DNA of 25,217 bases from a virus: positions 1 through 25,217 of IMG/VR virus record IMGVR_UViG_3300046792_000178, one strand, 5' to 3'. The translations under genes were made by a program, and so were the position numbers. The notes beneath the pieces are model-generated. The model saw nothing but the letters and a program-made list of their open reading frames with translations. It searched no databases and was not told the origin of the DNA. Within the stretch, counting starts at the first letter, position 1, and each line of letters starts with the position of its first letter. Below are positions 5,628 to 20,905 of the stretch, piece after piece.

Positions 5628-6650
5628 TTGGCACTGAAGTGGATGGAAGGGTTCGAGGCCCCCGACGTTTCCTCGACGTACTACGGCCGCAAGTACGCCT
5701 CCTCGGCGACCGGCCCCGGCACGAACGCCGGCCGCGTCACCGGGAACGCGAGCGGCACGAACAACATGAACCTGCGGTCCGCATCGCTCGGGTCGCAGGT
5801 CAAGTGGACGGCGGGGTTCGGCTTCAAGGGCTCGAACTCCACGCCGGCCTCGTGCGACGTGTCGCTGCGCTTCTTCCTCTCGGCCACCGAGCAGATCCGG
5901 TTGCGCATCCACGCCACCGGCGCGGCGGTCGCCAGCATCGACATCATGCGCGGCGCCACGATCATCGCGACGCCGGTCACGAATCTCTCGATCAATGCGT
6001 GGCACTACATCGAGTTGCAGGTCCGCGTGGACACCGGCACGGCCGGCACGCTCGAACTGCGCGTGGACGAGGTCAGCGTCTACACGAACAGCGGGACGAA
6101 CACCGCGAACGCCGGCTCGGCGAACGCGGACGTGTTCTCGTTCACGGGCGTGTCAGGCCAGACCAGCTTCCTCGACGACATCTACATCTGCGACGATCAG
6201 GTCGGTGACGGCCTCGGCAACGACACGTTCCGTGGCGACAGCCAGATCGTCGGCTTCAAGCCGAACGCCAACGGCTCGATCGACAACTGGACGCCGTCGT
6301 CGGGCGCCAACCACGCGACGCTGCTCGCGGACACGAGCGACTCCACCTATGTCGCCAGCAGCACGGTGAACCAGGAAGACCTCGTGAACTTCGAGGATCC
6401 CACGATCCCGAGCGGCACGATCTTCGGCATCCAGTTGACCTCCCTCGCGAACCTCGACGTGGCTGGCTCCCGCCAGTACGTCACCGAATACTACGACGGG
6501 TCGAGCCACGTCTTCCCGACCAGCCACGTCGTCGGTTCGACCACGATCGCCGGCTTCAACGACGTGGTGGAAGCCAACCCCGTGTCGGCCGTGAACTGGT
6601 CTTCGGCCGACCTCAATGCCGCGCAGTTCGGCGTGAAGTTGATGGTGTAA
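5628..6650 (+). CDS. Lectin-like minor tail protein, paralogue A
   Basis: This 340-residue beta-rich protein is probably a minor tail or tail-tip protein. The start is TTG at 5628 with AGGAGA five bases upstream, the only well-placed ribosome binding site. It opens with LKWMEGFE, a pattern common at the start of phage concanavalin/LamG-like tail proteins. The N-terminal half reads as a jelly-roll lectin-like domain ending near FLDDIYI. The C-terminal half has NWTPSSGANH, IFGIQL and a closing NPVSAVNWSSADLNAAQFGV. All of these recur in the protein at 6983-8047, so the two are tandem duplicates. Lectin-like domains can bind carbohydrate, but no ligand can be named from the sequence. Confidence 0.75.
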   Translation: MALKWMEGFEAPDVSSTYYGRKYASSATGPGTNAGRVTGNASGTNNMNLRSASLGSQVKWTAGFGFKGSNSTPASCDVSLRFFLSATEQIRLRIHATGAAVASIDIMRGATIIATPVTNLSINAWHYIELQVRVDTGTAGTLELRVDEVSVYTNSGTNTANAGSANADVFSFTGVSGQTSFLDDIYICDDQVGDGLGNDTFRGDSQIVGFKPNANGSIDNWTPSSGANHATLLADTSDSTYVASSTVNQEDLVNFEDPTIPSGTIFGIQLTSLANLDVAGSRQYVTEYYDGSSHVFPTSHVVGSTTIAGFNDVVEANPVSAVNWSSADLNAAQFGVKLMV

Positions 6651-6982: not shown

Positions 6983-8047
6983 ATGTCACTTCGCTGGATG
7001 GAAGGGTTTGAACGCGACCAGGGTACGACCGACTTCGGTCGCAAGTACGCCGTGGCGCAGAACACCGGCTCATGGAACTTCATCACGGGGCCGAAGGTCG
7101 GGCAGGCCATGCAGGCCGGCAGCAACCTCGATGCGGAACTCCGCACCAAGGCGCTGGTCGGCGCGGTCCAGAACACCTGGGTCGTCGGCTGGCGCGTGCG
7201 CGGCGCGACCTCCTCGGGCACGATCGCGGCCGGCGACCGCGCTGGTGGCGTCACACTCTTCAGCGGCTCCAGCGATCAGATCGAGGTCCGCTACCACTCG
7301 CTCGGCGGTGGCGGTGTGACGTGGCGCGTCTACCGGGGCTCGACGCTCCTCGGCGAGTCCCCGTCCTTCTGGGACGTGGACTGGACCTATTGGGAGTTCA
7401 AGATCACGGCGCGTACGGCGACCAATGGTGCGGTGCAGATCCGCCGCGATGGCGCGGTCTTCTACACGCTCTCCGGCATCAACGCCGGGAACAGCGGCGG
7501 CGACGGCGCGGACCGCGTGCGCTTCCTCTTCCAGATGGGCAACAACGGCAGCTTCGACGACATCTACATCCTCGACACCTCGGGCGCGCTGAACAACGAC
7601 TACCTCTCTGGTGACGTGGTTGTCTTCGGCTCCTCGCCGTCTGCGGACGGCAATCGGAATCAGTGGTCGCCGTCTCGCGCCGGCACGCACTTCGACCTCG
7701 TGAATGACGCGGCCGGCGCGCCGACCGACGCGACGAAGGTGAAGTCGCAGACGCCCGGCCAGGACGAACTGTACGACTACCAGAACCTCAACCTCGTCTC
7801 CAGCGGTCAGCCAATCTACGGCATGCAGTTGAGCACGACCGGCGGCATGGAGACTTCCGGCAACCGCACGCTCAAGCCCCTCGTCCGAGACACCGGCGGC
7901 TCCGAAGCCAACGGTCCCTCGTGGAACTGGAGCGACACCTCGCAACACAACGAGCCCACCATCTTCGAGCAGAACCCCGTGACGAGCGTGGCCTGGAGCA
8001 AGGCATCACTCGACGCGGCACAGTTCGGCCTCGACCTGTTCGCCTAG
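6983..8047 (+). CDS. Lectin-like minor tail protein, paralogue B
   Basis: This 354-residue protein matches the gene at 5628-6650 along its length. It opens with LRWMEGFE and FGRKYAV, reaches SFDDIYILD at the end of the lectin-like half, then NQWSPSRAGTH, IYGMQL and a closing NPVTSVAWSKASLDAAQFGL. Sequence between these anchors has diverged strongly, so the duplication is old or the copies are under different selection. A loop with SGGDGADR and a Gly-rich HSLGGGGVTW segment look surface exposed. The ATG at 6983 follows the preceding stop by one base, suggesting coupled translation. The role is inferred to be a tail-tip or fibre component, possibly two subunits of one assembly. Confidence 0.75.
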   Translation: MSLRWMEGFERDQGTTDFGRKYAVAQNTGSWNFITGPKVGQAMQAGSNLDAELRTKALVGAVQNTWVVGWRVRGATSSGTIAAGDRAGGVTLFSGSSDQIEVRYHSLGGGGVTWRVYRGSTLLGESPSFWDVDWTYWEFKITARTATNGAVQIRRDGAVFYTLSGINAGNSGGDGADRVRFLFQMGNNGSFDDIYILDTSGALNNDYLSGDVVVFGSSPSADGNRNQWSPSRAGTHFDLVNDAAGAPTDATKVKSQTPGQDELYDYQNLNLVSSGQPIYGMQLSTTGGMETSGNRTLKPLVRDTGGSEANGPSWNWSDTSQHNEPTIFEQNPVTSVAWSKASLDAAQFGLDLFA

Positions 8048-16289: not shown

Positions 16290-17728
16290 CGCTGGAAGAG
16301 TCCCGTGCCCCCCAGGGTGCCGCCGAACTGCGGGCGCGCCCCGGAAGACTCCCCGACCTTGGTGACGCGCCCCTGGCCCATCACGTCGCTGTAGAACGCC
16401 ATGATGAGGGCATCCCCCCGGTCCGGGGAGCCCATGCCGGTCCGCTGGGCGAACGCCTGCTTGTTCTCCAGGCGCAGACGCCCCCGGGCGTCCAGGTCGT
16501 AGGCCCGGGACACCAGTTGGCCGATCAGATGGTCGTCATCGGGAAGACTGATGGTCCCGGCCTTCAGCCGGCGCGCCAGGGTGAACAGCGCCTCGGTCGC
16601 CTTGTTGGCGTACTCGCGCGAGTCGCACGCGGTCCCGCCGAAGTTGAACGGGATGTAGCGCACCTTGGCTTCGTCGAGGATGTGGCGCACGCCCGCGCCC
16701 ATGCCGCCCACGTCGAAGACGTAGGTGCAGTCCTCGTTCTTCCAGCACGCGAGGTGCTGCATGCGGATCGCGTAGCGCATGACCTGCGCGGGGTCCGTGT
16801 TGCGGAACGTCTTCTCTTCGACGATCGCCATGCCGTGCCGGCGGTAGATCACGCTCTCGTCCGAGCCGAACGCCGCGAGGTCGATGCCGAACGACTTGAG
16901 GCCCGGCGCCGCCAGAATCGACGGACCCTTCGGCCGCTTGCACGCCTGCTCCAGCAGGTTCAGGTCGAATGGCGACTTGGCGTTCATGTTCGGGAACTCG
17001 CCGAGCACGCGAGTCCGGTACACGTCGCTGTCGCGGCCGTACTGCTCCTCCAGGCGCTTGTTGCGCGCCGGATCGACGATATGGGGGTACTGCTCGGCAA
17101 CCTTCTCGGCGTTGAAGACGTGGCACTTCCACAAGCCGCGCTTCGCCGTGAAGCAGCGGTGGAAGGCCGTCTTGGTCGCGGTCGGGTTGCCGATCGCCAT
17201 GAAGAGGCAGTCTTCGTTCGACAGCGTGCCCTCGGCCGTCACGAAGATTTCGTCGGAGATGCCCTGCGCCTCGTCGAAGATGAAGGTCAGGCCCTTCTCG
17301 TGGTAGCCCGAGATGTTCGCCGACTTGGTCGCGGTGGCGATCTTCACTTCCCAGTCGCGGGTCTGTCCGAAGACGATGCGCGACTTGGTGACGTTGACGA
17401 ACCGCTTGAGATACGGATGCGCCTTGTCGAGATGGCGCGCGCACTCCGCGAGGAATTGGTCACGGCACTGCCGCACTGACGGCGACGACAGAACCGTCAT
17501 CGCCTTGTAGCCTCGGAGCGAGCGCCACATCGCGATGACTGCGGTGATCGCCGTCTTGCCCGGGCCTTGGCCGGATCGAATGGCGATGTGCGTGACGCCG
17601 GCCTGCACGTCCTTCAGGACTTCCATCTGGTAGTCCGTCGGCACGAAGTTGAGGCACTGGCAGAAGTAGAAGATGTCCGTGCGGATCCGCGCGTACATCT
17701 CCTCCCAGGTTTCAGTCTGGGTGGGCAT
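16286..17728 (-). CDS. terL: Terminase large subunit
   Basis: This 480-residue protein is the packaging motor: an ATPase that drives DNA into the prohead and a nuclease that cuts the concatemer. The ATPase motifs are Walker A SGQGPGKT (52-59), Walker B FIFDEA (149-154, with D152 and E153) and coupling motif AIGNPT (178-183). The RNase H-like nuclease domain has acidic positions D283 (GIDLA), D339 (VFDVGG) and D436 or D439 (SPDRGDA). Length is normal for the family. The ATG at 17728 lies 17 bases inside the preceding gene, so translation is probably coupled. It is the last gene of the minus-strand series and meets the plus-strand genes head-on, an unusual orientation relative to the tail genes. 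Confidence 0.95.
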   Translation of the reverse strand: MPTQTETWEEMYARIRTDIFYFCQCLNFVPTDYQMEVLKDVQAGVTHIAIRSGQGPGKTAITAVIAMWRSLRGYKAMTVLSSPSVRQCRDQFLAECARHLDKAHPYLKRFVNVTKSRIVFGQTRDWEVKIATATKSANISGYHEKGLTFIFDEAQGISDEIFVTAEGTLSNEDCLFMAIGNPTATKTAFHRCFTAKRGLWKCHVFNAEKVAEQYPHIVDPARNKRLEEQYGRDSDVYRTRVLGEFPNMNAKSPFDLNLLEQACKRPKGPSILAAPGLKSFGIDLAAFGSDESVIYRRHGMAIVEEKTFRNTDPAQVMRYAIRMQHLACWKNEDCTYVFDVGGMGAGVRHILDEAKVRYIPFNFGGTACDSREYANKATEALFTLARRLKAGTISLPDDDHLIGQLVSRAYDLDARGRLRLENKQAFAQRTGMGSPDRGDALIMAFYSDVMGQGRVTKVGESSGARPQFGGTLGGTGLFQR

Positions 17729-18254
17729 ACGTCACGACCAGCGCCTTGGCCGGCGCGGCGTAGAGCGCCAGCATCTCTCGCGACAGCGCGCCCGGGATGC
17801 CGTCGAAGTCGCTGATAATCAGCAGCGAGTTGCGACCGGGGGGAATCAAGGGTCGGCACTTGTCCTTGCCGCCGGCAATCCACCAGCGGAGTCCGCCTCG
17901 GCCGAGGAAGCGGGTCAGGACCGCGTTCTGGTTCACGGCGATCTCGCGTTGCACGCCGGTCGTCCCGCCCTTGAGGACGGTCGTCAGGTCCGTCAGCCAG
18001 TTCACGCGCGACTGACCGTAGGGGACCGCGATCACGACATCCTCTTCCGGCTCGGCGAGGAGGTGCCAGAGCGCGGCGGCGATCTCGATGCGGCGCGCCT
18101 CGGGCGACTTGAAGTGCGTCTTCGAGACGCCGACGTGGTGGCCGGCGGCGAGTTGGCGCAGTGCGACCTTGGACCGGACCAACAGCTTCATCCCGAGCGC
18201 GAGTTCGGCGAACTGCGCGGGCGACGTGGCGGGTTCGGTTGCCACGGCGGTCAC
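17712..18254 (-). CDS. Unknown protein resembling a terminase ATPase domain
   Basis: This 180-residue protein has no family I can name with certainty. Its order of elements follows that of the ATPase half of the adjacent large terminase. A glycine-containing AGHHVGVSKT (37-46) stands where Walker A would be, then an AALWHLL helix, a DVVIAVPYGQSRVNW strand and helix, a second strand region, LLIISDFDGIPG (144-155) where Walker B would be, and a final VVTYAHPD where terminases have GNPT. The P-loop glycines are imperfect and the usual Glu after Walker B Asp is absent, so it may bind but not hydrolyse nucleotide. A helix-turn-helix at 31-55 is an alternative reading. The GTG at 18254 overlaps the previous stop. 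A packaging role is suggested by the 17-base overlap with terL. Confidence 0.6.
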   Translation of the reverse strand: MTAVATEPATSPAQFAELALGMKLLVRSKVALRQLAAGHHVGVSKTHFKSPEARRIEIAAALWHLLAEPEEDVVIAVPYGQSRVNWLTDLTTVLKGGTTGVQREIAVNQNAVLTRFLGRGGLRWWIAGGKDKCRPLIPPGRNSLLIISDFDGIPGALSREMLALYAAPAKALVVTYAHPD

Positions 18255-18508
18255 TTTCGCAGGCCGATGAACGCCGCTGCGAGCCCGAGGATGGTCGCGA
18301 TGCCGCTGCCGATCGAGACGAGCAGCTTGTACTTCGTCTCGACGCGGTCCACGCGGACGCGCAGGCCGGGCGTGTCGCCCTCGCCTACGATCTCGCGGTG
18401 TACTTCCCGCAACCACTTGTCGCGCATGGCGTCGCGCTCGCGGTCGTTCTTGCGCTCGATCTCCAGTGCCAGGACGCGCGACGGGAGGTCGTTCTTCTTG
18501 GGGCTCAT
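18251..18508 (-). CDS. Small membrane protein, holin- or XhlA-like topology
   Basis: This 85-residue protein has a charged helical N-terminal region (LEIERKNDRERDAMRDKW), a predicted coiled coil (VRVDRVETKYK), then one transmembrane helix at about 62-82 (LLVSIGSGIATILGLAAAFIGL), ending in LRK. A soluble coiled coil followed by one C-terminal membrane helix is the topology of XhlA-type lysis proteins and some holin partners. No endolysin gene is visible next to it, so lysis is only a possibility. The ATG at 18508 overlaps the preceding stop as ATGA. Confidence 0.65.
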   Translation of the reverse strand: MSPKKNDLPSRVLALEIERKNDRERDAMRDKWLREVHREIVGEGDTPGLRVRVDRVETKYKLLVSIGSGIATILGLAAAFIGLRK

Positions 18509-19419
18509 GGGGCTGGCTCGACGGGTGGTTCCAGCAGCAGACGTTCCGGCGCAGGCGCGATCGACGCGCGCTTGACCGACCGAACCATCTCCGCAACGTC
18601 TTCGTCCTGCTGGTCGCCGCTGCTGATGAGTCCCTGGATCGAAGCCATGAGGCGCAGCAGGGCCGCCTCCGCTGGGACCTTGCCGTCGTCTCGCGCGCGC
18701 TCCAGGGCTTCCTGGAGGCGCATCATCATCAGGCCCTTGTCCGCCTCGGGGTCGGACATCGTGAGTCGCTTCGCCGACCGCTTGGCGAGGCCGATCAAGG
18801 TCGTGGCCTCGGCCTCGCCGTATCCCTCTTGCGTCAGTGTCGCACGAGCATCCAGTTCGGTTCGCGCGAGGAGAAGGCGCAGGACGCGGGCGGCTTCGAT
18901 GTTCTCGAAGTCGGTGAAGTCGCTGGGCATCGGCCACGACAGCAAGGCCAGCGACGGATCGGTCAGGAGGACGAAGGCGGTATCGTCTTCGGCTCGGGCT
19001 CGAAGGCCGAGGCGCTTGCCGACCGTGTCGGCGATGGCGCAGAACTGCTCGACGACCTCGCCGGAAGGCGGCGGGTCGGAGGCGGTGGGAAGCAGCGCGA
19101 TCGGCTGCCGGGAGATGCCGATGACGAGGGAGTCACGCACATCGACGTGCTTCGTCGGGAAGACCTGCCAGGGCTCGGTCCAGCCGGGGTCGGCCGAAGT
19201 GGCGTCGGCGAGGAACTCGTTCCCGCGCAACATCCCGCGCAGTCGAGCGATCTCGCGCACGAGCCGCCAACCGACGCGGCGACGGGCGGCGAACGTGCCG
19301 TCAAGCTGTTCCTCGGGGGACAGGAAGGCGCGCCGCCAGAAAACGACAAGGTCGTCCGCCGTGAAGAGGCGGCCGGCGGGTTCGTCCCGGAAGGCAGCAG
19401 CAAGTCCCATACCAGACAT
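18505..19419 (-). CDS. Unknown protein, candidate small terminase subunit
   Basis: This 304-residue protein is not recognised with certainty. The N-terminal two thirds contain helical segments (TADDLVVFWRRAFLSPEEQL) and strands around WQVFPTKHVDVRDSLVIGI. The C-terminal third, from about residue 185, is helical: ARATLTQEGYGEAEATTLI, then GLAKRSAKRLTMSDPEADKG and a long amphipathic helix, ending in an acidic and Pro-rich tail. A helix-turn-helix-like segment followed by a coiled coil would suit a small terminase, and the gene stands two places upstream of terL. Start choice is uncertain: ATG 19419 and ATG 19410 both lack a clear ribosome binding site. At 304 residues it would be long for a small terminase. 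Confidence 0.4.
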   Translation of the reverse strand: MSGMGLAAAFRDEPAGRLFTADDLVVFWRRAFLSPEEQLDGTFAARRRVGWRLVREIARLRGMLRGNEFLADATSADPGWTEPWQVFPTKHVDVRDSLVIGISRQPIALLPTASDPPPSGEVVEQFCAIADTVGKRLGLRARAEDDTAFVLLTDPSLALLSWPMPSDFTDFENIEAARVLRLLLARTELDARATLTQEGYGEAEATTLIGLAKRSAKRLTMSDPEADKGLMMMRLQEALERARDDGKVPAEAALLRLMASIQGLISSGDQQDEDVAEMVRSVKRASIAPAPERLLLEPPVEPAP

Positions 19420-19720: not shown

Positions 19721-20277
19721 CGCCGGCCCGCCGTGCAGCCGGCCGCGCGGCACGGGCCGCCGAAGCCCTTGTGGAAGCCGGTGTCGAAGCAACCTTCGCA
19801 CTGGACGATCTGCTGCTTCAGCTTCTTGATGTCGTCGAGCGGCAGGGTTCGGTCGCCGTGCCAGTCCGCGCCGAAGTTGACCTTGCCGGTGAAGGGCGGC
19901 ATGTACATCGGGTAGGGCTGCGTCGCAGGACCGTAGGCTGCGGGGAGCGGCATGCCGGTGACGAGTGCGATGCCGTTGCGGGACACGTTGATGTCGCCGC
20001 CGTTGGGGATGACGGGGAAGCCGTTGTCCGATTCGAACAGCCACTCGTTGTTCTGGTCGATCTCGAACCGCTCCAGCGGCGGGCCGCTGACGTTCTTGAA
20101 GTACACGTCGGGCATGTCGATGCGGATGGTCGCGGAGGCGACATCGACGTAGTACCCGAGGCTGACCGGCCGGCTCGCGATGAACAGACCACCCGGGCCG
20201 ACGAGCACGCACTCGAAGGGCTGCGTGAAGTCGAACAGCCCGGCCACGAGCGAGGCTCTGTTGATCTCTTCCTTCAC
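19717..20277 (-). CDS. Unknown protein with C-terminal Cys cluster
   Basis: This 186-residue protein is not recognised. The first 145 residues are beta-rich (ECVLVGPGGLFIASRPV, YYVDVASATIRIDM, NEWLFESDNGFPVIP) with a Tyr/Pro-rich stretch near 115-128. A short helix (LDDIKKLKQQI) leads to C160, C163, C176 and C181 (CEGC, then GPCRAAGC), a probable zinc site of the CxxC..CxxxxC type. A beta domain plus a metal-bound tail could be a virion component or a host-interaction protein. The GTG at 20277 overlaps the previous stop as GTGA; the upstream part of this frame is Arg-rich and is not coding. Confidence 0.6.
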   Translation of the reverse strand: MKEEINRASLVAGLFDFTQPFECVLVGPGGLFIASRPVSLGYYVDVASATIRIDMPDVYFKNVSGPPLERFEIDQNNEWLFESDNGFPVIPNGGDINVSRNGIALVTGMPLPAAYGPATQPYPMYMPPFTGKVNFGADWHGDRTLPLDDIKKLKQQIVQCEGCFDTGFHKGFGGPCRAAGCTAGRR

Positions 20278-20693
20278 GGCTGGAGCCTCACGGGCGAGTT
20301 CCACTTCTCGCTGGTCTTGTTGAACTTGCGCGCGACGATGGTCGCGAGATCGAGGCCCATGCTCGCGCCGAGGAGATCGACGCAGATCATCGCGTCGGCC
20401 AGTTCGTCGGCGAAGTGATCGAAGAGACGGGCGTACTCCTGCTCGCTTGCGTAGGCCATCTGTCCCATCATGTGACGCGGCGACGTGCGGCTGAAGAATG
20501 ACCACGGCTGAATCCGCCGCATCTTCTTCAGGACGTTCAGCGCCTCGCCGACCTCACCCGCGAGGTTCACGGCCCATTCGGCCGGCGTTAGCACGTCGAT
20601 GTCTTCGCCCGGTCGCGTGCTTGTGCGTGCGAGGTTCGCAACGCGGAGCCGCGTGAGGAAGTCCGGGATGCCGTCCGTGAGGAGGTCGCTCAC
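20274..20693 (-). CDS. MazG-like nucleotide pyrophosphohydrolase
   Basis: This 139-residue protein resembles the all-alpha MazG/dUTPase-like NTP pyrophosphohydrolase superfamily. Those enzymes cut nucleoside triphosphates to monophosphates and pyrophosphate. The metal-binding motif appears as GEVGEA (E47, E50) and DELADA (E97, D100), followed by a helix with GLDLATIVARKFNKTSEKW, typical of the family's end. The gap between the two halves is 46 residues, longer than the common 12-28, because of an inserted segment (PWSFFSRTSPRHMMG). Phage MazG proteins may recycle nucleotides or lower alarmone levels; which applies here is unknown. The GTG at 20693 overlaps the preceding stop as GTGA. Confidence 0.78.
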   Translation of the reverse strand: MSDLLTDGIPDFLTRLRVANLARTSTRPGEDIDVLTPAEWAVNLAGEVGEALNVLKKMRRIQPWSFFSRTSPRHMMGQMAYASEQEYARLFDHFADELADAMICVDLLGASMGLDLATIVARKFNKTSEKWNSPVRLQP

Positions 20694-20905
20694 CGGAGCA
20701 CCAGTTCGCCCTTCGCGGGCGCGAGGGTGCTCGTGACGGCGGGCTCGACGGTCCACTGGCCGCCGACGGGCGCGGTGAGGAGGTAGCGGCCGGGCGACAG
20801 CCCGAAGCGCGCGCCGGCCTCGTTGGACGGGACGTGGAAGTAGAACTTGCGCGGCATCCCGGCCTTGATGGCCTTGTGCAGCGCGTATTCGAGGGCGTGG
20901 CGCAC
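20690..20905 (-). CDS. Small protein of unknown function
   Basis: This 71-residue protein opens with a helix (RHALEYALHKAIKAG) and continues as beta strands (RKFYFHVPSNEAGARFGL, RYLLTAPVGGQWTVEP). It ends LAPAKGELVLR. I chose GTG 20905 because CAGGAGT stands five bases upstream; a longer frame to 21040 is Ser/Arg-rich and lies inside the protease gene. It is the first gene after a 40-base gap that holds an RNA hairpin and a weak promoter candidate. No family is recognised. Confidence 0.6.
   Translation of the reverse strand: MRHALEYALHKAIKAGMPRKFYFHVPSNEAGARFGLSPGRYLLTAPVGGQWTVEPAVTSTLAPAKGELVLR

Follow-up and report, generated by a model that had tools for sequence, protein, structure and literature searches.

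A conserved gene upstream of terL predicted to encode a TerL-related ATPase core that has lost its catalytic motifs

What is a protein that resembles the motor domain of the large terminase (TerL) doing directly upstream of a complete terL gene? The virus record IMGVR_UViG_3300046792_000178, analyzed here over its whole length of 25,217 bases (the window), encodes such a protein, which we call the pseudo-ATPase. A preliminary description, made from the DNA letters without database searches, had offered two answers: a decayed duplicate of the motor domain, or a regulatory pseudo-ATPase that pairs with the motor. We combined orthologue comparison, structure prediction and profile alignment at this locus to choose between these and other explanations.

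The terL locus and its relatives

The open reading frame and the motif strings quoted in the preliminary description are present in the window, on the minus strand, which had been left unstated, and a complete terL follows directly with the 17-base overlap described (Table 1). The annotated start of the pseudo-ATPase is a GTG at 18254, which the stop codon of the preceding 85-aa gene overlaps. An alternative GTG at 18245 gives a product of 177 aa and may be the actual start, because two aligned orthologues (L003 and L004) begin with ATG there. The terL product carries the P-loop SGQGPGKT, the Walker-B motif FIFDE and the coupling motif GNPT followed by the nuclease half, and it matches phrog_5902 (1.4e-38) and phrog_2, terminase large subunit (1.7e-27). 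Tail genes (tape measure, major tail and tail assembly) lie on the left of the window. Two adjoining plus-strand genes of the tail module (5628-6647 and 6983-8044) both match phrog_2448, so they are likely a tandem duplication. Elsewhere on the minus strand, an ORF at 20946-21734 matches the Trypsin_2 peptidase (3.8e-17), and one at 20274-20756 has a weak MazG-like match under the curated cut-off.

Table 1 Features of the terL locus in the window
Feature	Position	Strand	Evidence
terL, complete large terminase, 480 aa	16286..17728	minus	motifs, PHROG matches
Overlap of pseudo-ATPase stop and terL start, 17 nt	17712..17728	minus	ORF coordinates
Pseudo-ATPase gene, 180 aa, related to TerL ATPase core	17712..18254	minus	ORF, orthologues, AF2, Foldseek/VIA, hhalign, dN/dS
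Walker-B position, residues 145-151 LIISDFD	17802..17822	minus	alignment, hhalign, pattern test
P-loop position, residues 44-49 SKTHFK	18108..18125	minus	alignment, model secondary structure, pattern test
85-aa conserved neighbour, C-terminal hydrophobic segment (possible TM helix)	18251..18508	minus	
304-aa conserved helical protein, possible small terminase	18505..19419	minus	

Orthologues of the pseudo-ATPase were found in three other IMG/VR contigs, with 71% identity in L001 and 49% in each of L004 and L003, and the family consists of these four known members only. The gene immediately precedes terL in all four contigs with this type of terL (4/4), and the same 85-aa and ~300-aa genes come before it in each. 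Its overlap with terL is shorter in the orthologues, at 14, 11 and 11 nt. Outside the family and within the limits of these searches, tblastn of the pseudo-ATPase against 50,697 phage records gave no match, and two scans of GTDB bacterial and archaeal genomes, one using the pseudo-ATPase family and the other TerL, gave none. Pfam and PHROGs scans of the pseudo-ATPase returned no useful match, and a sequence search of the PDB returned no credible one.

We estimated selection by the Nei-Gojobori method. The dN/dS of the pseudo-ATPase gene is 0.38 between the window and L001 and 0.12 between L003 and L004; in the same pairs, it is 0.32 and 0.12 for terL, and 0.23 and 0.13 for the gene of the 304-aa protein. 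Distant pairs give 0.57-0.70 for the pseudo-ATPase and 0.28-0.38 for terL. As the former values are above those of terL but below 1, like those of every pseudo-ATPase pair, the pseudo-ATPase evolves faster than TerL, yet under purifying selection, and this pattern is not what a decaying copy would show.

Predicted fold and similarity to large terminases

The best AlphaFold2 model of the pseudo-ATPase, built from an alignment of three orthologue sequences, has a pLDDT of 79.4 and a pTM of 0.81; the remaining four were poorer, ranging from 59.5 down to 43.9. The order of elements in the model is a helix, strand 40-43, helix 50-67, strand 72-77, helix 82-95, further strands, strand 143-147, helix 155-165 and strand 170-174. 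When the model was compared with the PDB by Foldseek, the first 17 matches were TerL structures, including those of HK97 (6z6d, E 3.2e-4), D6E, P74-26, T4 gp17 and PhiV-1; the Sf6 terminase appeared lower in the list, and the TerL chain of 8dgc was also among the matches. Nearly all named top matches in a BFVD fold search were terminases. VIA-align gave a Z score of 13.5 to the Sf6, HK97 and T4 terminases over 144-169 residues, followed by NAT10/Kre33-type proteins and helicases with Z scores of 12.4 and lower. The predicted fold is thus a TerL-type ASCE ATPase core, whereas the outcome named beforehand as speaking against a terminase-like protein was an unrelated fold, for example a helix-turn-helix (HTH) small terminase.

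Profile comparisons agree with the predicted fold. Against a profile of 13 remote phage TerLs, hhalign aligned the pseudo-ATPase with an E value of 6.6e-5 over 133 columns, colinear from 9-156 to 18-161, and the real score of 35.5 compares with 23.3 for the best shuffle (0/120 shuffles as good). A profile of 17 TerLs, composed of the four closest and the 13 remote ones, gave an E value of 0.0032, or 0.0013 with the ATPase half alone, and none of 200 column shuffles matched the real score. The TerL nuclease half, in contrast, aligned with the pseudo-ATPase at chance level, with 66 of 200 shuffles as good. Together with the ASCE core of the model, these colinear alignments bear out the earlier suggestion that the product follows the element order of the TerL ATPase domain.

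The reach of this similarity is limited. Alignments with the four closest TerLs alone were colinear and not significant (E 0.11 and 0.069), so we confine the claim of kinship to TerL broadly and do not extend it to the phage's own terL. BLASTP of the pseudo-ATPase against its own TerL found no match, which means that the link to TerL needs profiles. T4-like jumbo TerLs gave no match either (E 0.71), which places the pseudo-ATPase with the broad TerL type to which its own motor belongs. The protein is probably derived from the ATPase domain of a phage large terminase.

Loss of the catalytic motifs

The position of the P-loop reads SKTHFK in the window and TKTNFK or SCKRFK in the relatives, and no member has a glycine in it. 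Residues F48 and K49 are invariant and stand just ahead of helix 50-67. The model puts SKTHFK before this helix and hhalign sets the register a few residues later; a working P-loop is backed by neither. The preliminary description had read the P-loop as AGHHVGVSKT, which is doubtful, as HVGV forms strand 1 in the model. At the Walker-B position, Ser or Ala stands in place of the Asp, and Asp or Gly in place of the catalytic Glu (SD in the window and L001, AG in L003 and L004). Walker A and hhhhDE patterns were found in 0/4 members, and the terL of each of these genomes retains its motifs. The P-loop glycines and the catalytic Glu, described earlier as imperfect, are indeed altered, but they are erased rather than imperfect.

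At the coupling position, the family has AHPD or a similar sequence where terL has GNPT. A stop codon then follows, with no lid and no nuclease, and the protein ends where the ATPase core ends; in this respect the alignment and the chance-level score of the nuclease half agree with what had been read from the window. We considered the retention of an arginine finger and dropped it: an Arg before the conserved GR, near the position of P74-26 R139, is present in L001, L003 and L004, but the window has Pro there.

Possible functions and companion genes in other phages

The gene, its predicted fold, its homology, the loss of its motifs, the purifying selection and its conserved position are established directly. 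We believe that these features are best explained by a conserved, TerL-related and catalytically dead ASCE core, probably a non-catalytic companion of TerL, with a probability of roughly 0.6; the lack of ATP hydrolysis, the contact with TerL and the regulation are what we infer. The overlap with terL indicates that the protein is probably made together with TerL, and the position, the overlap and their persistence suggest that it acts on TerL. In such a mechanism, the pseudo-ATPase and TerL would be produced together from the overlapping genes, the pseudo-ATPase would bind TerL via its ASCE surfaces, and, once bound, it would help to assemble, stabilise or restrain the motor or its DNA-cutting state.

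Of the two options offered at first, the pseudo-ATPase is thus favored by the purifying selection and the conserved position, while it is very unlikely that a copy of the motor domain has decayed, lost its function and persisted by chance. Decay could account for the missing catalytic motifs and for an in-frame TGA that replaces the conserved Trp63 of the orthologue in L003 (3667-3669), where the rest of the frame is intact. This TGA could reflect an error in the assembly, or else the gene was lost recently in L003 and is perhaps dispensable. However, none of the other three contigs has an interrupted frame, although divergence reaches ~50%, dN/dS stays below 1 in every pair and falls to 0.12, and the synteny is conserved in 4/4 contigs. 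It is quite unlikely that the protein serves as a nucleotide sensor, still binding nucleotide through K49 in a non-canonical site: the invariant F48 and K49 precede a helix and K49 could touch a phosphate, but the loop is free of glycine in every member and the Walker-B Asp is replaced. The least probable reading is that the protein acts as a decoy and distracts host immune receptors for TerL, such as Avs3. The protein imitates the ATPase fold of TerL that Avs3 binds, and the TerL chain of 8dgc is among its Foldseek matches, but a decoy would not need to be coupled to terL and nothing specific speaks in its favor.

A role as small terminase (TerS), in which the protein would stimulate TerL and bind either DNA or the site where packaging starts, we regard as unlikely. 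The gene occupies the usual place of terS, as in PfDIW6 and Kovu, and no terS was recognised in the window. TerS proteins are built from an HTH DNA-binding domain and a helical-hairpin oligomerisation core (PMC9611059), however, and both are absent from the pseudo-ATPase model, which is an alpha/beta ASCE fold; hhalign of the pseudo-ATPase also gave no match to the TerS of related phages. Moreover, the phage phiM12 has both an annotated terS and a gene for an ATPase core, and the helical 304-aa product is another candidate in the window. It could be the TerS of this phage; its AF2 model has a pLDDT of 62.5, and none of fold searches, tblastn, PHROGs and hhalign linked it clearly to TerS.

Short stand-alone jumbo-phage proteins among the BFVD matches led us to a group of RaK2-like phages. 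CBB_274, GAP32_268, RaK2 ORF110 and the homologues in SNUABM_47, BF and PBECO4 are encoded directly upstream of terL with an overlap of 11-23 nt. The small gene and terL abut in XbC2 and Kaldavass, and the overlap is thus present in six of eight RaK2-like genomes. The Walker-A Lys is replaced in 9/9 aligned sequences, Atu_ph07 included (GLS, GLT, GIT, GTT, GTE, GSS). The nine aligned small proteins lack the catalytic Glu as well. In Atu_ph07 (L041, 1418-2152) the pseudo-TerL-like gene lies far from terL, and the Walker-A Lys is Ser. The RaK2-like genes for TerL-ATPase-like proteins directly upstream of terL, annotated as terminase or hypothetical, lie at 1677-2384 of L040, at 1538-2218 of L042 and in L044-L049. 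Some of these small proteins (CBB_274, GAP32_268, RaK2 ORF110 and PBECO4 gp501) have been called truncated terminases and considered unusual (PMC5259590, PMC7760394). Like the pseudo-ATPase, the RaK2-like proteins resemble a stand-alone TerL ATPase without nuclease and are encoded directly upstream of terL; unlike it, they have ~225-245 aa, a lid-like C-terminal part and kinship with T4-type TerL.

Sinorhizobium phage phiM12, which PMC5259590 mentions, encodes gp17.2 between terS and terL (L056, 34-2674, minus strand). The 196-aa gp17.2 lies directly upstream of terL with a 4-nt overlap and aligns to its own TerL with an E value of 9e-22. It shares with the pseudo-ATPase an ATPase core that ends at the coupling motif, but it keeps ATGKTT and YIDE, and it is the full TerL of phiM12 that has an altered P-loop, QSAKTT. 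Since gp17.2 keeps its motifs, companions of this kind need not share one mechanism. We do not claim the RaK2-like and phiM12 small proteins as direct relatives of the pseudo-ATPase family, as the hhalign similarity is weak for the RaK2-like family (E 0.02) and absent for gp17.2 (E 0.87). Because each small protein resembles the TerL type of its own phage, independent duplications appear likelier than common descent, although the window-type TerL profile also picks up the RaK2-like family, which makes the discrimination of origins partial.

The usual model of a phage packaging motor is a homomeric ring of TerL that works with TerS. The occurrence of motor-like genes at the same position in unrelated phages suggests that some motors have a non-catalytic partner subunit. 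Tentatively, DNA packaging in some tailed phages might rely on a heteromeric motor, one of whose subunits is a TerL-like protein dedicated to a non-catalytic role. Such a motor would have evolved more than once: in the small tailed-phage group of the window, in the RaK2-like jumbo phages and, as a related variant whose small partner is still canonical, in phiM12. If true, this would reveal a hidden class of motor regulators, against the picture of a homomeric ring. A literature search for pseudo-ATPase or pseudoenzyme terminases found no paper, and where the retrieved papers mention such genes, 'truncated' terminase is the only term used. The pseudo-ATPase is a new family of a poorly described kind, and the coupling of terL to a conserved, dead relative of the TerL core points to a class of pseudoenzyme subunits unnamed in the literature searched. 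A partner subunit would make both the switch of TerL between cutting and pumping and a possible asymmetry of the motor ring testable.

Compared with the TerL ATPase domains of HK97, D6E, P74-26, T4 gp17 and Sf6 gp2, the pseudo-ATPase shares the predicted fold, the order of elements from the N-terminal region to the coupling position and a colinear profile, but it is devoid of the P-loop glycines, the Walker-B Asp, the catalytic Glu, the coupling motif, the lid and the nuclease. A parallel in organization, for which we claim no kinship, is found in herpesviruses. Structures of their terminase subunit pUL28 have no typical ATPase or nuclease features (PMC7196598), and the pUL15/pUL28/pUL33 terminase is, as we propose for the window, a motor accompanied by extra regulator or fixer subunits (PMC7196598).
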